From positions 1-24,049 of the IMG/VR virus record IMGVR_UViG_3300009034_000208: a stretch of 24,049 nt of DNA; one strand, 5' to 3'. The notes under the pieces were generated by a model. The model ran no database searches and was not told where the DNA came from. It saw only the letters and a program-made list of their open reading frames with translations. This document shows, in pieces, positions 7,283 through 21,244 of this stretch. How positions within the stretch are numbered: position 1 is the stretch's first letter; each line of letters starts with the position of its first letter. Made by a program: the position numbers and the translations under genes. This stretch comes from a virus.

Positions 7283-9112
7283 CTATGGGAGAAGCATTGC
7301 TCTCCAAGCGAAGTCCCAGTTGCTTGCGCCAGGATCGTTTTCAACGTTCACTTTAAAGTGTGTAATGTTGATGTTGTCAACCCAAATCGTGTGTACATTG
7401 TTTGTGGGGTCTTCAGTTCCTAATACCGTGAAGTACTGGGCTGTCGGAGTCACGTCTAAACCATGCGCCACATCAACGTCTGTTGAGCCGTTGGGTATGC
7501 TACTGGTTCCACTGTTTTCTGTTGCGTAGCCCTCATTGAAATGAATGGTGTCGGTTATAGGAGTTTCCGCGAGAAGCATGACAGTTCCGTTGTAAGCATC
7601 GCTAGTTAAAATGTTGCTTGTCACGATGTTGTTGTCACAGTCTGTTCCGATGTACACTTGGTAACGGTCATTATTGGTGATTGTGTTGCCGTCTATCGTA
7701 TTGTCGTCTGCGTCAAACATCAAGGTTACGCCGTCACTGGAGTTTGTGTTGTATAAGTCACTGTCTTGAATGAAGTTGTGGCCTAAAGTGTTGCCGCTTC
7801 CTGAAGCCATGAAGGTTGTTTCGTTTCTACCATCAATGTACACGCCTGAATCCACGCTTTCGCGTATTGTGTTGCCTGTCAACGTGTTGCCCGTTCCAGA
7901 CAGGTAGATTCCGTGACTGTTGCTTTCTTCAATGGTGTTGCCTGTTATCGTGTTGTGCGCTCCGCCCATATAGATTCCGTACCGCGTGTTGGTCTCCAAA
8001 ACGTTTCCTGTGAACGTGTTTTCTTGCGCTGCAGCCCGTTGCGTTGCGTTACAGAAGATGCCGTCAACCAGACAATAGTAAATGAAGTTTTCAGCAATAA
8101 CATTATTGTCAACGTCGTTTAACGTTCCACTGCCGTTCATGTAAATTCCGTAGCCGATTCGTTCTATCCAGTTGTTGATTATGTGAACGTTGTGGACTCG
8201 TTGCATGTAGATTGCGGAGACAGTGCCGTTGTCTGTTCCAACAAAGCGAATGTTAGAAACTACAACGCCTTGATAGTCGCTCGGATGCACGTTCACGCCT
8301 ACTATCTCAACAAGATTAATCGTCCAGTCACTCGTTGTCACTACCGTGCTTTTTCCTTCTCCGAACAGACTAACTTTATCGTTTAATTGAAACGGTGAAT
8401 CTAAAGTGTAATTGTGTCCACCTGCCAAAACTATTTTTCCGCCAACCGTCGACTCGTCTCTTGCACTTTCATAAACCGCCGTCACGTTTGTTCCAGAATA
8501 GTCGATGGCCCCTGTCGTGCCGTTCTTCGCAAAGTAGAAACTGCCTTCTCTAAAGATTGTGTAGCTTGCGCTTTCCGCTTGGCTCCTATCCTCCACGAAC
8601 CCGACGAGAACTCCACTGTCCCACCGTTTAAAATCAAAATTGTGATAATCCTCTAAAGAAGCGGTTGCGCCGCTGTCAATGGTTACAGAGATGCCCGCAG
8701 CCCCGTTAGCTAACACAAGTCTTATCTTATCCTTCAAAGTCACAGCGGCGTTGTAAGTGCCTAACGAGTGAGGAGCCTTCACGTAAATTGTTCCTCCAAT
8801 CGCTGTTTGATTGTTGATTGCAAATTGAATCGCATCATCATCGCTCGTGCCTAAATACTCGCCTGTACTACCAGTAACCATGAACGTACTCATGTTCCGG
8901 CAGGCGTAGTGAGTGCTGTTGTACTCCCACACCACATAGGATGCTTCACTCCATGCTTCCAACGGGTCTTCAAGAGTTTCCGCTTCAATCACTTTAACTA
9001 CATTCGTCAAATGATAGATGGTTATGGATTGGGCTATTAATACGCCTATTGTTATTAAAAGCACTAAACCCCAGACTTTCAGTAGTTTCGGGAATCTTCT
9101 TTTTCCAAACAT
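7283..9112 (-). CDS. Membrane-anchored parallel beta-helix protein
   Basis: With ATG 9112 (one base after the upstream stop) the product is 609 residues; TTG 9136 is an alternative behind weaker signals. Residues 1-10 are basic and 12-34 form one transmembrane helix, giving a signal-anchor topology. Two copies of an entry module follow (SYVVWEYNSTHYA at 58-70 and SYTIFREGSFYFA at 183-195). Residues about 230-520 form a right-handed beta-helix of pectate-lyase type with repeated N-x-I-x-x-N rungs (TGNVLETNTRYGIYMGGA, TGNTIEESNSHGIYL). The C-terminal 70 residues carry DVAHGLDVTP and end FAWRAMLL, a domain shared with the neighbouring 119-aa protein. Sequons are abundant. It probably recognises or displays glycans at a membrane. 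Catalytic pectate-lyase residues are not evident. Confidence 0.78.
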   Translation of the reverse strand: MFGKRRFPKLLKVWGLVLLITIGVLIAQSITIYHLTNVVKVIEAETLEDPLEAWSEASYVVWEYNSTHYACRNMSTFMVTGSTGEYLGTSDDDAIQFAINNQTAIGGTIYVKAPHSLGTYNAAVTLKDKIRLVLANGAAGISVTIDSGATASLEDYHNFDFKRWDSGVLVGFVEDRSQAESASYTIFREGSFYFAKNGTTGAIDYSGTNVTAVYESARDESTVGGKIVLAGGHNYTLDSPFQLNDKVSLFGEGKSTVVTTSDWTINLVEIVGVNVHPSDYQGVVVSNIRFVGTDNGTVSAIYMQRVHNVHIINNWIERIGYGIYMNGSGTLNDVDNNVIAENFIYYCLVDGIFCNATQRAAAQENTFTGNVLETNTRYGIYMGGAHNTITGNTIEESNSHGIYLSGTGNTLTGNTIRESVDSGVYIDGRNETTFMASGSGNTLGHNFIQDSDLYNTNSSDGVTLMFDADDNTIDGNTITNNDRYQVYIGTDCDNNIVTSNILTSDAYNGTVMLLAETPITDTIHFNEGYATENSGTSSIPNGSTDVDVAHGLDVTPTAQYFTVLGTEDPTNNVHTIWVDNINITHFKVNVENDPGASNWDFAWRAMLLP

Positions 9113-9113
9113 T

Positions 9114-9473
9114 TTAAAGAGCCGCCCTCCAACCAACAGTTAACTTACCCACTTTGTTATGGTAAACCGTGATGTTCGTAGCATCAGCGTTGTAACTGCA
9201 AACATAAGGCTGCAAAGCTTTAGGAGTAATTGCAACCCACGCAGGCGTGCCGCCAAGCCCATGCGCGATGGTGCCTCCGCTACTCACGGTTGCTTCGCCA
9301 CCTGATCCACCGCCAGGTGAGCTTCCCGTAACCGTTAAGTCACCAGCGATTGCCAAGTCACCTGCAATGTTCTGCGCTCCCGTGTCAGTTTGGCTCATCA
9401 TATCAGTTCTAAACTGGTTCAGTCGCGTATGCGTTATTTTCTCGCCGTCTGTCCAAGCGTCTGGACGTGCCAT
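9114..9473 (-). CDS. 119-aa fibre-like protein with AHGL domain
   Basis: ATG at 9473 follows AGGTGA with 9-base spacing. Residues 1-30 (DAWTDGEKITHTRLNQFRTD) resemble the anchoring ends of phage tail fibres (W-T-x-G-E-x-I ... R-L-N). Then come two near-identical strand turns (NIAGDLAIAGDLTVTG), a glycine-rich linker (GGGSGGE), and a C-terminal domain with TIAHGLGGTPAWVAIT and a final VGWRAAL. The last domain matches the C-terminus of the membrane-anchored beta-helix protein downstream. It is likely a small fibre or adaptor on the virion. The function is inferred from domain style. Confidence 0.68.
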   Translation of the reverse strand: MARPDAWTDGEKITHTRLNQFRTDMMSQTDTGAQNIAGDLAIAGDLTVTGSSPGGGSGGEATVSSGGTIAHGLGGTPAWVAITPKALQPYVCSYNADATNITVYHNKVGKLTVGWRAAL

Positions 9474-9589: not shown

Positions 9590-11221
9590 TTACGCACCTA
9601 ACACATAGTCAATAATCAGTCGCACATACTCGCCTGCGCCTCCACTTCCATCTTGATAGAAGGTTATAGTGTCACCAGCAGTGAAGTCGCTTTTAGCAAG
9701 TGTTAACGCTACACGCTTCCAAATGTTTCCTGTCCCCGATGACACGCTTGTTACATAGTAGTTTCGATCTGCAGCTCCATCTCTGCCATAGCCAACTTCT
9801 ATATTTGTGTCGTTAGCTACGGCGGTTTCGTAAAGCAGTGTTGCACGGGCAATAAACACTTCTTCAGTGAAGGTGGCGACTCCCTTGGTGGTTGCGCCGT
9901 TAATTTGAACGGCATCGCTTACTACCCGTCCATCATAGGTGTTGTGGGTTCCTACGAAAGCGTGAGAGGCTGTGCCGTTGCCAGCGCAACGGTTGTTACT
10001 GTAACTGTTATAGTCAGTGCTGTCTAACTCTCTGATGCCATAATCTTGATCGTAGCAAACGTTACCGGTAATACTATTGTGTAGGGTCAACGCTCCTTCA
10101 AGATGAATGCCTGAACCTGTACCGTCCTGTCCGTTTTTGATGCATGTGTTCCCTGAAACAGCGTTATATTGTGCGCCTCCCAACAGTTTGATGCCGTGAA
10201 CAGCGTTGTTCGTACAGACGTTTCCAGCTACAGTGTTATAGTGTGTAAGGTGGTCTCCAGTTCCTATTGACGTGCCAAGCATGATTCCGTCGCCTGTGCA
10301 TCCAGCAACGAAATTGCCGACAATCGCGTTGTAATGCGCTTTATGACGCAATTCAATGCCTGATGTGTTTCCTCCATACTCGATGACATTGCCCGTTATC
10401 GTGTTATACCAAGGGTCAGTGTCACCTATACCATCAATTTGAATGCTAGCGGCTTCCGTGTCGTCATCTGCTTTAAACCAGTTACCTCCAACCGTGCAGT
10501 AACTCGCTCCGTACAAGGCGAGAGTATCATTCACGAAGTGATTGTTCCGAATGATACAGCCCGTAGCAGCATTGTAGAATGCTATTCCTCGGTCAGCATT
10601 GTTATCAAAGTAGTTGTTTATCACCTTCGTTCTCGCACCGTTCACCAATATGCCATCGCTTGACCCTGCGGAGCCACAATCTGTGATGCGACAGTTTGCC
10701 ACAAGATTGTCGCTGCTACCAATGTCCAAACGAATGTTGTGTCTGTCTCCAGACGTGATGTGCATATTAATGATTGAACTGAATGTGGTAGTGTCAAACT
10801 CTATGTTACTGTAATTACCCGCGTTGTTCGCTCGGTTGCCATCCAAAACACCGCCTACCATCTCAATCATGGTTTTATTCGTCGCATGAAATATATTGCA
10901 GAAACTTGAGTCTGTTGCTGTAATCTTACCATCCAGTTCAAAGATTGTGTAAGATGGCAAATTGAGAGTACTACCAGTTACGAAGTTCCCTTTCAACAAC
11001 ACTTTTTCTTTCCAAGTTCTACCACTCGTTAAAGCATCCAAAGCCGCTTGAATCACCGTCGCCGCGTCTGTTCCACTATATTCTGTTCCACTAGCAACAT
11101 TACATTCCGCACGGTAAGTGCTTCCATCCTTCCAAACCGTGTAGCTTGAGGGAATGCTCTCGCTTAACCGTCGCATGCGTGTTAAACTGTTAATTCGTTC
11201 GCCAACCGTCCAAGCCAACAT
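9590..11221 (-). CDS. Parallel beta-helix spike/fibre protein
   Basis: The 543-residue product starts at ATG 11221, overlapping the upstream stop region (TAAATG). Residues 1-20 (LAWTVGERINSLTRMRRL) form a short anchor like that of the 119-aa fibre protein. The entry module SYTVWKDGSTYRA (26-38) and DAATVIQAALDAL (52-64) leads into a right-handed beta-helix (about 90-420) with rungs such as NCRITDCGSAGSSDGILV and ITGNVIEYGGNTSGIEL. The C-terminal 100 residues form a separate beta domain (VATFTEEVFIARATLLYET, DTITFYQDG) likely to cap or trimerise the helix. No signal peptide or membrane helix is present, unlike the protein at 7283-9112. It fits a virion spike or receptor-binding protein. Enzyme activity against polysaccharide is possible but unproven. 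Confidence 0.8.
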   Translation of the reverse strand: MLAWTVGERINSLTRMRRLSESIPSSYTVWKDGSTYRAECNVASGTEYSGTDAATVIQAALDALTSGRTWKEKVLLKGNFVTGSTLNLPSYTIFELDGKITATDSSFCNIFHATNKTMIEMVGGVLDGNRANNAGNYSNIEFDTTTFSSIINMHITSGDRHNIRLDIGSSDNLVANCRITDCGSAGSSDGILVNGARTKVINNYFDNNADRGIAFYNAATGCIIRNNHFVNDTLALYGASYCTVGGNWFKADDDTEAASIQIDGIGDTDPWYNTITGNVIEYGGNTSGIELRHKAHYNAIVGNFVAGCTGDGIMLGTSIGTGDHLTHYNTVAGNVCTNNAVHGIKLLGGAQYNAVSGNTCIKNGQDGTGSGIHLEGALTLHNSITGNVCYDQDYGIRELDSTDYNSYSNNRCAGNGTASHAFVGTHNTYDGRVVSDAVQINGATTKGVATFTEEVFIARATLLYETAVANDTNIEVGYGRDGAADRNYYVTSVSSGTGNIWKRVALTLAKSDFTAGDTITFYQDGSGGAGEYVRLIIDYVLGA

Positions 11222-14051: not shown

Positions 14052-14933
14052 CTAAGTTAAAGCGTTTATTTCAACAACTGCGTTACTACGTTTTATAACG
14101 GGAACAACGGCTTCCCAAACTTTGCCTTTATAGTTCATGTTAGATTCTTGCTGCAGGTAGTTAGTGATGTCTGCACCCACGATTAGTTCAAAGTTGCCTG
14201 GTTGCACGTCAACGAGTAGAACCCTGTCTGTTCCGCCATCGCTTGCGTACAGGTTGTCGCTGACCAGAATGTTCTCTACGCCTCCAATAAGTTCTCCTAC
14301 CGCTTGGAAACCCCACTTTTCAGTGTTGCTGATCAAAGCTTCTATTTGTCCGTACCACGTGCTGTTCAAGATGAGCTTGTAGGGACCATAGTATCCTGCG
14401 GCTCTAAGTAGTTGCTTGGCTGTTGCAATGTACGTGAGGTAGTTTGCGCTCCAGTCGCCTCCCACCGTTGATTGCTTGTTTGTGCCAGTTGCTAAACCTA
14501 GAATGCCAAGTGCAGGCCAACCAGTGTATTCTCCAGAGAGAATGAGTTTGTCCTCTTCCTCCGCCACTTGCCTAGCCGCGTTTTCTGCGTGTTGAGTGTT
14601 CAAGTCTTCCCCAGTGTTTCTTCGCATCAACACATCTCTCCAGTGAAGGGTGTAATCTTTGCTTATGATGGGGATATTCGCTGATCCTTCAGTTAGGTCC
14701 ACGAGGTCTTCGCTTGCTTCTTCGCCTGTCATGCTTATTGTTGCTTGTCCCATGTCGTTTTCAGTGTAGTAAGTGTATTTTCGGAAGCCAGCGTGAGCTA
14801 ATGACCGGATAGGCATGAGTTGCCTTCCGATGAGCATTGGCCTGACGGTTTTGGTGATGGCTGTTTCCACATTGTTGATTTCGTAGTCCGTTAAGGTTCC
14901 AGTGGCTAAACCGACTCGTCTAAGGTTCTGCAT
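14052..14933 (-). CDS. Major capsid protein, HK97 fold, encapsulin-like
   Basis: The 293-residue product has the length and motif order of encapsulin-type HK97 shells. Residues 87-105 (IPIISKDYTLHWRDVLMRR), 119-134 (AARQVAEEEDKLILSG), 183-190 (GPYKLILN) and 248-256 (FELIVGADI) match, in order and spacing, the corresponding segments of family 1 encapsulins as remembered (for example ...RKVAEFEDEVIFRG and GPYTLVIN in the Thermotoga protein). It lies directly after the decoration gene and downstream of protease, scaffold, portal and terminase genes, so it is a viral capsid subunit rather than a free encapsulin. The N-terminus is short, with no delta domain, consistent with a separate scaffold. 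The start is ATG 14933. Confidence 0.88.
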   Translation of the reverse strand: MQNLRRVGLATGTLTDYEINNVETAITKTVRPMLIGRQLMPIRSLAHAGFRKYTYYTENDMGQATISMTGEEASEDLVDLTEGSANIPIISKDYTLHWRDVLMRRNTGEDLNTQHAENAARQVAEEEDKLILSGEYTGWPALGILGLATGTNKQSTVGGDWSANYLTYIATAKQLLRAAGYYGPYKLILNSTWYGQIEALISNTEKWGFQAVGELIGGVENILVSDNLYASDGGTDRVLLVDVQPGNFELIVGADITNYLQQESNMNYKGKVWEAVVPVIKRSNAVVEINALT

Positions 14934-17589: not shown

Positions 17590-19335
17590 TTATGGGTCTA
17601 AATCTTCGCCCCAAGCAGACACAGTATCATCGTCTTTCACGTTGCCGCCCCAGAGAGTTCCTGTTCCAGCATCAGTTACATCTGTGGTGCAAGCTCTAAA
17701 GTCGTTGCCATTAACGAAAGTCTTGTCACAATCGGCGTTTTCAATCCAAAGTCCTGTCGCACAATTATACAAATAATTATTAAGAATTGAGTTGTTGTCA
17801 GCACTATACATATGTATTCCCGTTCTGTTTGTTATTGTGGTGTTGTAGATGTAATTACCATTTGCAAAATTATGGTCTGCTCCTGTAGCGAAATATATCC
17901 CATCCTTAGCAGATGCGGTATCCATCACGTAATTGTTTAATACAGCACAAAAATCGGCATCACTTATCACTATCTGGTCATCTGTTGACCCTTCTACCCG
18001 ATTGCCATCTACAACAGCATTATTGGACTGGTAAATCAGTATTCCACGATTCTGCGTTCCAATAACAGTATTATTCACACAAACCGATTTACTGCCCAGA
18101 TAAACGAAGATACCGTCATCCGCTGATCCTTCGACTCGACATTCACTGATTAAGGTGTTTAATGCGTTTACAACGTAAATACCTACGTCACCAGCATTCA
18201 AAATTGTTAATTTGCTGAGAGTGATGTTTGAGTTAGAACTATCAACAACCCATACTCCGTCATCCACAGTATTTTCAATTATGACGCTATCTATGGTTAA
18301 ATCAGTGGCGTTGCTATCTATCATGATGCCATACGCGTTGCAATCGTTAAGAACACCATTTGAGACTGTTGCTCTCTCGACATATGTATCAATAAGTAGA
18401 CCAGATTGACCGCCAGACCCACAATTATTAATGTGAAAACCTGTCAAAACCGTATCTAAACATTTATGGGTTGCATCTGTTCCTTCAAGGTGTATACCAG
18501 TTAATGTTGCATCTTTTCCAGTTAACCCAGAGAAAACGTTCCCCCGACAGGTTTGATGCCAAGCCTGTAATCCGAAATTTTCATCAGAGGATGTGTCCCC
18601 CACAATATTGCTTGCTACACAGTAAGTGGTATCCTTGAAATAAAGATTATTCCCAACTACTCTTACACCAGAATTTTTGGTTACACAGTTAGAAACGATA
18701 GAGAAATCAACAGTTCCCGATGCATTTCCATACAAGGATATGTTTGATTGTCCAGACGTGTCCACAAGACATGATGATATGATGTCTCCTGTTGATGGTC
18801 CCTTGACGAAAATGCCTTCGTCCCACGTATCGTAAACGTAACAATTTTCTATGGTAGCATAATCTGCGTTAGCGTCAACCTCAATGCCCTTTGGATAACC
18901 ACCAGTTTGCCCTGCACGATTGCCATCCACTTGCAAATTTCTAATTGAACAGTAGTCAGCAGTACTTCTTATAACGCTGTCGTTTACTCCATTATCTATC
19001 GTAAGAATAGTGTTCCAACTTTCTCCGTCTATAACAATTTTGGCGTTAGAAACCTCAGGAGTGGCTGATAAAGAATAAAGACCATCTTTAATGAATATTT
19101 TTCCTCCACTCGACAAAACATCTATCGCCGCCTGTATCACCGTCGCTGCATCTGCTCCATCAACTCCACCAACATCATCAGAACCGCCGTAATCCATTTT
19201 TGATGTTGATCCATTAATCGCTTCGTAAACACTTCCAGTTTTACGTATGATATAAGAAGCGAGTTTGTCAGGTTCGTAGAGTCCTTGTCCTTCATCAATG
19301 TAAGGACATGTCCAATATGAAGGCATAGGTGACAT
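17590..19335 (-). CDS. Parallel beta-helix protein inside the head module
   Basis: The 581-residue product starts at ATG 19335 after AAAGGAG, which overlaps the upstream stop. An N-terminal tail (residues 1-26) precedes the entry module SYIIRKTGSVYEA (27-39) and DAATVIQAAIDVL (62-74). Residues about 90-550 are a long right-handed beta-helix with repeated rungs (TIENCYVYDTWDEGIFV, ISECRVEGSADDGIFV, VVDGNRVEGSTDDQIVI). The rungs resemble pectate-lyase-3/NosD-type repeats. It lies between the minor head protein and the protease, an unusual place for a spike, so it may be a head-bound fibre or a recently inserted gene. It has no signal peptide. A glycan-binding or degrading role is inferred. Confidence 0.8.
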   Translation of the reverse strand: MSPMPSYWTCPYIDEGQGLYEPDKLASYIIRKTGSVYEAINGSTSKMDYGGSDDVGGVDGADAATVIQAAIDVLSSGGKIFIKDGLYSLSATPEVSNAKIVIDGESWNTILTIDNGVNDSVIRSTADYCSIRNLQVDGNRAGQTGGYPKGIEVDANADYATIENCYVYDTWDEGIFVKGPSTGDIISSCLVDTSGQSNISLYGNASGTVDFSIVSNCVTKNSGVRVVGNNLYFKDTTYCVASNIVGDTSSDENFGLQAWHQTCRGNVFSGLTGKDATLTGIHLEGTDATHKCLDTVLTGFHINNCGSGGQSGLLIDTYVERATVSNGVLNDCNAYGIMIDSNATDLTIDSVIIENTVDDGVWVVDSSNSNITLSKLTILNAGDVGIYVVNALNTLISECRVEGSADDGIFVYLGSKSVCVNNTVIGTQNRGILIYQSNNAVVDGNRVEGSTDDQIVISDADFCAVLNNYVMDTASAKDGIYFATGADHNFANGNYIYNTTITNRTGIHMYSADNNSILNNYLYNCATGLWIENADCDKTFVNGNDFRACTTDVTDAGTGTLWGGNVKDDDTVSAWGEDLDP

Positions 19336-19339
19336 TTTT

Positions 19340-19732
19340 TTACTCCTTTTTCACTTCCTCAAGCAGTCTCACTAAATAGCATCGGCAGTTCGGGTGAACA
19401 TTCGCCCTAATCGTGCCGTAATCCATGATTTCAAGATAGGGAAACAAACCGCGCAGTCGATCGCCATGATAGTCTTCATGATAGTCCTCGTGTTCAGCGT
19501 GGCGACGGCACAACTCGCAAGTCCTTTCATCCACGACTTCTTGGAACAACCAAATGTCCATGTGGCTGAAGTAGGTGATTGCTGGACGTTGCGGTTCAGG
19601 AATGCGTTTCAGCGCACCTAAAGCAACTACTGCTCTAGTGCTTATGACTGCGTTTACGCAACTCCGTGACCGCTGTGCTTCCATCTCCGAGAGGCTTAAC
19701 GTTGTAGGTTTCTCCTTTATCAAACTGTTCAA
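19340..19732 (-). CDS. MuF-like minor head protein, short form
   Basis: The 130-residue product contains the C-terminal metal-binding module of phage Mu F / SPP1 gp7-type minor head proteins: ERTCELCRRH (C72, C75), GLFPYLEIMDYGTIRANVHPNCRCYL (starting at G95; H113, C116, C118). Full-length members are usually well over 200 residues; here the N-terminal helical part is almost absent. A short tandem duplication (HEDYHEDYHGD) lies beside the metal site. The frame opens at TTG 19732, overlapping the portal gene by 98 bp, but the true start is unclear (TTG 19723 or ATG 19684 are also in frame). The protein likely sits inside the procapsid near the portal. Confidence 0.75.
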   Translation of the reverse strand: MNSLIKEKPTTLSLSEMEAQRSRSCVNAVISTRAVVALGALKRIPEPQRPAITYFSHMDIWLFQEVVDERTCELCRRHAEHEDYHEDYHGDRLRGLFPYLEIMDYGTIRANVHPNCRCYLVRLLEEVKKE

Positions 19733-21032
19733 AACTCGATTTGCCTAAGACCTCGTTTCCACCCTGTTCTTCGCTGAGGTCTTCAAGGTCAGGGTCAATG
19801 GCTTTCCTCACCTCGTTCCGCGTCATGTATTGTCCTTTAATTTGCCATGCTTGCGCTTCCATCAATTCAATCTCAGCTTTCTTCTCCTCCGTGAGTTCTA
19901 TACCGCTTTGCCATTTGAACATGAACTCTTCATGATCGCTTGTGGGACTGTAGACATCCCGTATCACGTTGATTAGTTTTCGTATGCCACTTTCATACCC
20001 GCTCTGAGCGTCACTAACCACACCATAGTATTCTTGTTGGTTGACTTCTGAACCCGTCAACGCTCCCGCTTGTACCCCGCGCAATATGGCTAATGGGATG
20101 CCTGTTCCGCAACTGATGTTCTCCATAATGGGCAAGTAATAGTTCATCGGGTCCAACGCTCTGCCCGCTGCACCCTTAAACTCTATCACTTGATCCTCGT
20201 TGTGAGCGAAGTATGTTCTTGCTGAAAGGTTGCTGAATGAGCCAGCGTCCATGTAACTGTCGATGTCAGCTTGTTCCGCGCCAGTGAATGTTATGTCGGG
20301 GATGCCGCTGCCGTACCGGAACATGGTTTGCCCCATGCCCCACCTGATGTTTCTTAGAGTTACGATGTCGTCCCACACTGGATCAAGAACACTTAATCCC
20401 TGCCATTCTTCCCTGCTACTAGAATATGTTCTTCTCGTTGCAAAATGGATCACTCGGCTGTAGTGAACTCGCAGGTAAGCTGCTATGCCTGGCTGTTTAA
20501 TGTGGTATATCTGGGGTAATCCGTAACGCGGGTCAGTCTTGTCTTTAACTGTTATGACTTTAGGTATTTGTGGAGGACCGTAGGCTTTGATTTCTCTGAG
20601 GGCTGTGGGTTCAGTTACTTCTTGCGAAAGGTCTTTCGTCTTATCCTCATAACCAAGCACAAGGATTGAGTAGCCGTAAGCCCGTTCAAACACGCTCATC
20701 AACGTGAACTCGCGTTTCGCTTTAAGCCGGGTTAGTTCCGTTTGAATGTCCTTGTCAAACTGTTTACTCTTCTCTTCATCCTCTTCGCCTTCATGAGCCA
20801 GTTCAAACCAGTTGTCGAAAATGTCATGGGCAACCGTGAACACTGCCCTGTGCGCTACGGGTTCCCTTGTGATGGCGAAGGTTCTGAAGTTGTCGGTGAT
20901 GTCTGCGCCGTATTCGCCTCCAGCCCCGCCCGTTCCACTACGTGGTATGAGGAGTCCTGTGCCTGTGTCGGCAACGTCTGCCGTGCCTATTTTCTTTCCG
21001 CGTCCCAAGAAACGTTTTATTCCATCAAACAT
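19635..21032 (-). CDS. Portal protein (DUF1073-type)
   Basis: The 465-residue product is the dodecameric vertex protein through which DNA is packaged. The start is ATG 21032, since GGAAGGA lies 10 bases upstream; a TTG 18 bases earlier is less likely. Family features are LSVLDPVWDDIVTLRNI, the glycine-rich GMGQTMFRYGSGIPDI, and NISCGTGIPLAILRGVQAGALTG, followed by the helical stretch ending in QYMTRNEVRKAI. An N-terminal Gly-rich segment (SGTGGAGGEYG) precedes the clip/wing core. It follows the large terminase in the usual order, but a plus-strand gene separates the two. Its end overlaps the minor head gene. Confidence 0.88.
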   Translation of the reverse strand: MFDGIKRFLGRGKKIGTADVADTGTGLLIPRSGTGGAGGEYGADITDNFRTFAITREPVAHRAVFTVAHDIFDNWFELAHEGEEDEEKSKQFDKDIQTELTRLKAKREFTLMSVFERAYGYSILVLGYEDKTKDLSQEVTEPTALREIKAYGPPQIPKVITVKDKTDPRYGLPQIYHIKQPGIAAYLRVHYSRVIHFATRRTYSSSREEWQGLSVLDPVWDDIVTLRNIRWGMGQTMFRYGSGIPDITFTGAEQADIDSYMDAGSFSNLSARTYFAHNEDQVIEFKGAAGRALDPMNYYLPIMENISCGTGIPLAILRGVQAGALTGSEVNQQEYYGVVSDAQSGYESGIRKLINVIRDVYSPTSDHEEFMFKWQSGIELTEEKKAEIELMEAQAWQIKGQYMTRNEVRKAIDPDLEDLSEEQGGNEVLGKSSFEQFDKGETYNVKPLGDGSTAVTELRKRSHKH

Positions 21033-21040
21033 TTTATATA
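21032..21040 (+). promoter_or_regulatory. TATA box for the plus-strand 53-aa gene
   Basis: On the plus strand TTTTATATA lies 36-44 bases before ATG 21076. An archaeal TATA box about 26 bases before transcription start would place initiation near 21064 and leave a leader of about 10 bases. An A/C-rich stretch upstream (CATCAAAC) may be the BRE. The sequence overlaps the portal start region. Confidence 0.5.
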
Positions 21041-21075
21041 GTCCTTCCAACGATTAAAGTAATGAAGTGATTAAG

Positions 21076-21237
21076 ATGACAACTCTTATTTCTACATACT
21101 TTACTAAAGAAGAACTTGACTTTATTGAGAGTGCATTATTCATTTTCAAAGATGAGTTTGTGTCAAACCCCACAGAGTTGGAGCAGTTGGAAAAACTCTA
21201 TACGAAAGTCAAGAAGCTTCAAGGCGAAGTTCAATAA
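21076..21237 (+). CDS. 53-aa plus-strand gene inside the packaging module
   Basis: A 53-codon frame runs opposite to all its neighbours, filling the gap between portal and large terminase. ATG 21076 is preceded by AAGTGATT (weak ribosome binding site) and by a TATA-like TTTTATATA; a T6 tract follows the stop. The product is hydrophobic near the start (TTLISTYFT), then helical (KEELDFIESALFIFKDEF, ELEQLEKLYTKVKKLQG), acidic overall, and without cysteines. The self-contained promoter, gene and terminator point to an independent unit. It could be a small regulator or anti-host factor expressed at another time than the late genes. No family is recognised. Confidence 0.6.
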   Translation: MTTLISTYFTKEELDFIESALFIFKDEFVSNPTELEQLEKLYTKVKKLQGEVQ

Positions 21238-21238
21238 G

Positions 21239-21244
21239 TTTTTT
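21239..21244 (+). terminator. T6 tract ending the plus-strand gene
   Basis: Six T follow the plus-strand TAA by one base and overlap the terminase stop codon on the other strand. Archaeal RNA polymerase terminates at such tracts, so this may end the small antisense transcript. Confidence 0.4.

Follow-up and report, generated by a model that had tools for sequence, protein, structure and literature searches.

Why should a small gene stand between the portal and large terminase (terL) genes of a tailed virus and be read against both of them? The question arises in the window, by which we mean the whole stretch of 24,049 nucleotides that was analysed, a 24-kb virus record whose late genes lie on the minus strand. 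The portal start codon ends at 21035 and the terL stop lies at 21243, leaving a 207-bp gap (21036-21242) that is nearly filled by a plus-strand open reading frame (ORF) of 53 codons, whose strand is opposite to that of all late genes and whose stop is 6 bp from that of terL. The ORF, its strand and its place between portal and terL are as given in the preliminary description of this DNA. The features referred to below are the following.

14052-14933, minus strand: major capsid protein, a late gene
19635-21035, minus strand: portal gene (Pfam PF06381 Phage_portal_3, E 6.8e-38; PHROG 146, E 8.4e-42)
21033-21040, plus strand: TATA-box-like TTTATATA, a putative promoter of archaeal type that overlaps the start codon and leader of portal
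21064-21071, plus strand: Shine-Dalgarno-like GAAGTGAT, predicted from the sequence, 4 nt before the ATG
21076-21237, plus strand: 53-codon ORF, MTTLISTYFTKEELDFIESALFIFKDEFVSNPTELEQLEKLYTKVKKLQGEVQ (ATG 21076, TAA 21235-21237), with a gene-like codon score and a helical hairpin model
21239-21244, plus strand: T6 tract, a weak candidate for an archaeal-type terminator, overlapping the terL stop codon
21243-22514, minus strand: terL (Pfam PF03237 Terminase_6N, E 3.6e-8; PHROG 2, E 1.2e-34)

It could be argued that there is no gene here, and that the ORF is spurious and lies in a short leader or spacer between genes, what remained when another cargo gene was lost. When the 207-bp gap was resampled with a first-order Markov model, an ATG-initiated ORF of at least 53 residues was obtained on the plus strand in 0.5% of the cases and on either strand in 1.3%. 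Chance ORFs of such length are uncommon in such a gap, even if the figure of up to 3.7% found for any start codon on either strand of this A+T-rich sequence leaves some room for a spurious ORF. In contrast, codon usage speaks for a gene. Under a codon model trained on the window's other genes, with the 53-codon ORF excluded, the ORF scored 0.108 nats per codon (compare 0.134±0.089 for true genes with −0.172±0.122 for off-frame segments), a gene-typical value reached by only 0.5% of the off-frame segments, and its codon usage fits that of the virus's real genes. A GTG at position 21067 offers an alternative start and would lengthen the ORF to 56 codons; since this GTG sits within the Shine-Dalgarno-like GAAGTGAT, we consider the ATG at 21076 the likelier start.

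The ORF also appears to possess start signals of its own. The TATA box put forward in the preliminary description was found at 21033-21040, ~36 bp upstream of the ATG, and is the only exact copy of TTTATATA on either strand of the window. In halovirus HF2 the TATA box starts ~26 bp before the measured start site (PMC8707807), and if this spacing is applied to TTTATATA, transcription would begin near 21059, with a leader containing the Shine-Dalgarno-like box. With this fitting spacing, a promoter proper to the ORF is plausible. A bacterial sigma-70 promoter was also considered and discarded, as the locus has no such site. The TATA-like box falls in the A+T-rich spacer that separates the ribosome site of portal from its start codon, and may have arisen there by chance; at up to one mismatch, it was absent in antisense orientation from the portal starts of 38 relatives, a few of these start positions being approximate. 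A unique TATA box properly spaced from a Shine-Dalgarno-like box is nevertheless a second point against a spurious ORF.

At the other end of the ORF, the T6 tract had been taken for a dedicated terminator, a role that the sequence does not support. The window contains 20 tracts of at least six T on the plus strand, and in the nearest record, L002, which lacks the 53-codon gene, the terL 3′ end is identical (...ACACGATAAAAA) and five of the T6 bases are kept; the tract is thus partly ancestral terL sequence. No terminator-like hairpin was found at the ORF 3′ end, the predicted RNA fold there was not unusual (z 0.38), and an Rfam search of the insert gave no match. An inverted repeat (21035-21051/21186-21202) is also present in the gap, probably by chance.

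These results bear on another explanation, in which the insert would act as an RNA or promoter element, convergent on the terL 3′ end and divergent from the portal start, and would tune the late genes by antisense or interference, the peptide being incidental. The geometry suits this idea, as the TATA box lies over the start codon and leader of portal while the two stops almost meet. Moreover, a late-operon cargo, the ant moron of P22, is reported to modulate read-through into the gene that follows it (PMC2629481). However, the empty Rfam search, the ordinary fold of the 3′ end and the coding signal in the ORF all run against it, and we regard it as quite improbable.

We looked at the same junction in relatives of the virus, which are IMG/VR records designated by L numbers and provided roughly 45 terL-portal junctions. 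The 53-codon gene and its DNA were absent from all the relatives seen. In L002, whose terL and portal are 83% and 79% identical to those of the window, the gap holds an unrelated, co-directional zinc-ribbon gene, and in L082 a different co-directional small ORF. In L004-L007, L009 and L084 terL and portal touch or are about a dozen bases apart, and terL adjoins portal without cargo in many more distant records too. Where the junction is filled, it mostly contains a co-directional zinc-ribbon gene (L083, L085-L092, L105 and L188-L192), often with further small genes alongside; this gene, with its paired cysteine motifs, is conserved at the junction and had no library match above the cut-off. 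Because the junction is either empty or variably filled, we regard it as a cargo site, and the 53-codon gene, replaced in relatives by nothing or by other small genes, looks like an interchangeable accessory gene and not a core one. Its location between hallmark genes would be in keeping with a fixed core gene of the group that is merely on the other strand, but its absence from every relative seen, including L002 with its zinc-ribbon gene, makes that reading extremely improbable. The G+C content of the ORF is 35%, against ~46% for the late genes around, a difference of the kind expected of a moron. The moron-type insertion suggested in the preliminary description is thus borne out, as regards insertion and strand, by the presence/absence comparison that it had proposed and by this lower G+C.

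Reversed genes are found at only three of the roughly 45 junctions (the window, L090 and L201), and all three are different. Those of the relatives are as follows.

L090, 1472-1777: reversed gene of 101 aa, behind the zinc-ribbon gene (chance-ORF P 0.0044)
L201, 1904-2275: reversed gene of 123 aa, between terL and portal (chance-ORF P 0.0008)

Each of them is open in its own frame only, and a Shine-Dalgarno box, GAGGTGAT, precedes both start codons. The codon score of the L201 gene (−0.019) is the best of the six frames and is not strong under the window's model. This gene has an AbrB-like look, an identity that we do not claim, since library searches were empty and its structure was poorly modelled (pLDDT 41). 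The L090 reversed protein resembles the product of the window plus-strand gene 778-1056 (19/60 identical, pairwise E 5e-6), as does that of a co-directional cargo gene of L188 (pairwise E 5e-5); one protein family may therefore occupy the junction in both orientations, single-pair E-values being weak evidence.

The predicted product of the 53-codon ORF has no homologues in Pfam, PHROGs, NCBIfam, PDB sequences, phages, plasmids, viral contigs or the 71 related records, which would be expected of a spurious ORF. The best PHROG match, phrog_37459 (0.012), was rejected because it covers 15 residues only. A degenerate DNA pattern for FTKEELDxIE retrieved 31 contigs, all with other, mostly longer proteins; it was set aside as a convergent helix-start motif. 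Single-sequence AlphaFold2 modelled the protein as a two-helix hairpin with a mean pLDDT of 81, which argues in turn against a spurious ORF. Structure searches with this model gave no E below 0.001, and no function follows from the fold, because simple helical hairpins match widely. With codon score, start signals and model on the other side, we consider a spurious ORF unlikely; the product is likely to be a small ORFan protein with an accessory or regulatory role.

We thus favour, as the probable explanation, a moron-type accessory gene, that is, a reversed small gene with its own TATA and Shine-Dalgarno signals acquired at the terL-portal cargo junction. A group of probably archaeal tailed viruses would swap small cargo genes at this place, and in the window virus a small protein gene would have been acquired in reverse orientation. 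Its transcription would be independent of the late programme, driven by the TATA box at 21033-21040 and giving a leader ~15-17 nt long, and translation would yield the predicted two-helix protein. This protein might be a small regulator or inhibitor that binds a partner from the host or the virus, and a small accessory protein acting on such a partner is the function we consider most likely. The least certain step is a dampening of terL or portal expression by convergent transcription. A broader proposal, in which the junction would be a dedicated cargo site whose reversed, independently promoted genes, the 53-codon ORFan among them, form new classes of regulator or counter-defence genes and adjust the expression of the packaging genes as well, through convergent transcription, seems doubtful to us.

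Morons of lambdoid phages are extra genes found between genes that are adjacent in relatives, with their own start signals and a differing base composition. The 53-codon gene is like them in position, in its apparent start signals and in composition; it differs in being reversed, in its probably archaeal (TATA) promoter type and in its non-specific terminator candidate. Among documented systems, the ant moron of P22-like phages comes closest. It lies between genes 16 and 9 of a morphogenetic cluster, likewise at a position with variable cargo, where related phages have different small gene sets or none, and it may affect the flow of late transcription (PMC2629481). The P22 cargo is a multigene immunity region whose function is known; the window virus, which is unrelated, has a single 53-codon ORFan between terL and portal.

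An archaeal host is probable for this tailed virus, since terL and portal have archaeal viruses (HJTV-4, ANMV-1) as their best named tblastn matches, although these are distantly related. The major capsid protein matches were mixed, no link to a host was found, and a terL scan of genome contigs, which gave distant bacterial relatives only, did not identify the host. Identity to the named haloarchaeal and Bathyarchaeia tailed viruses (Caudoviricetes; HJTV-4, ANMV-1 and Fuxivirus) is only ~21-27%. In Fuxivirus, terL and portal have adjacent gene numbers (PMC10848311), and the portions consulted on the three viruses describe no reversed terL-portal gene, unlike the window virus. The present findings carry the moron or cargo-site idea into a group of tailed viruses that is uncultured and probably archaeal, in which the terL-portal junction is a simple handle for collecting small accessory genes, a frequent seat of anti-host and counter-defence functions; the importance of the 53-codon ORFan itself is modest.

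Some further observations were made on these genomes. The L082 terL (3-1301) has no tblastn similarity to the window terL, yet the last residues of the two are almost identical (WKSGPVRTAWTR), as would be expected if the terminase had been swapped and its C-terminal tail kept. In the window, the top Pfam score of the major capsid protein is Linocin_M18 (encapsulin, E 2.8e-27), and three long repeat proteins (7283-9136, 9590-11221 and 17590-19335) have, as judged by eye, a parallel beta-helix (pectate-lyase-like) look.
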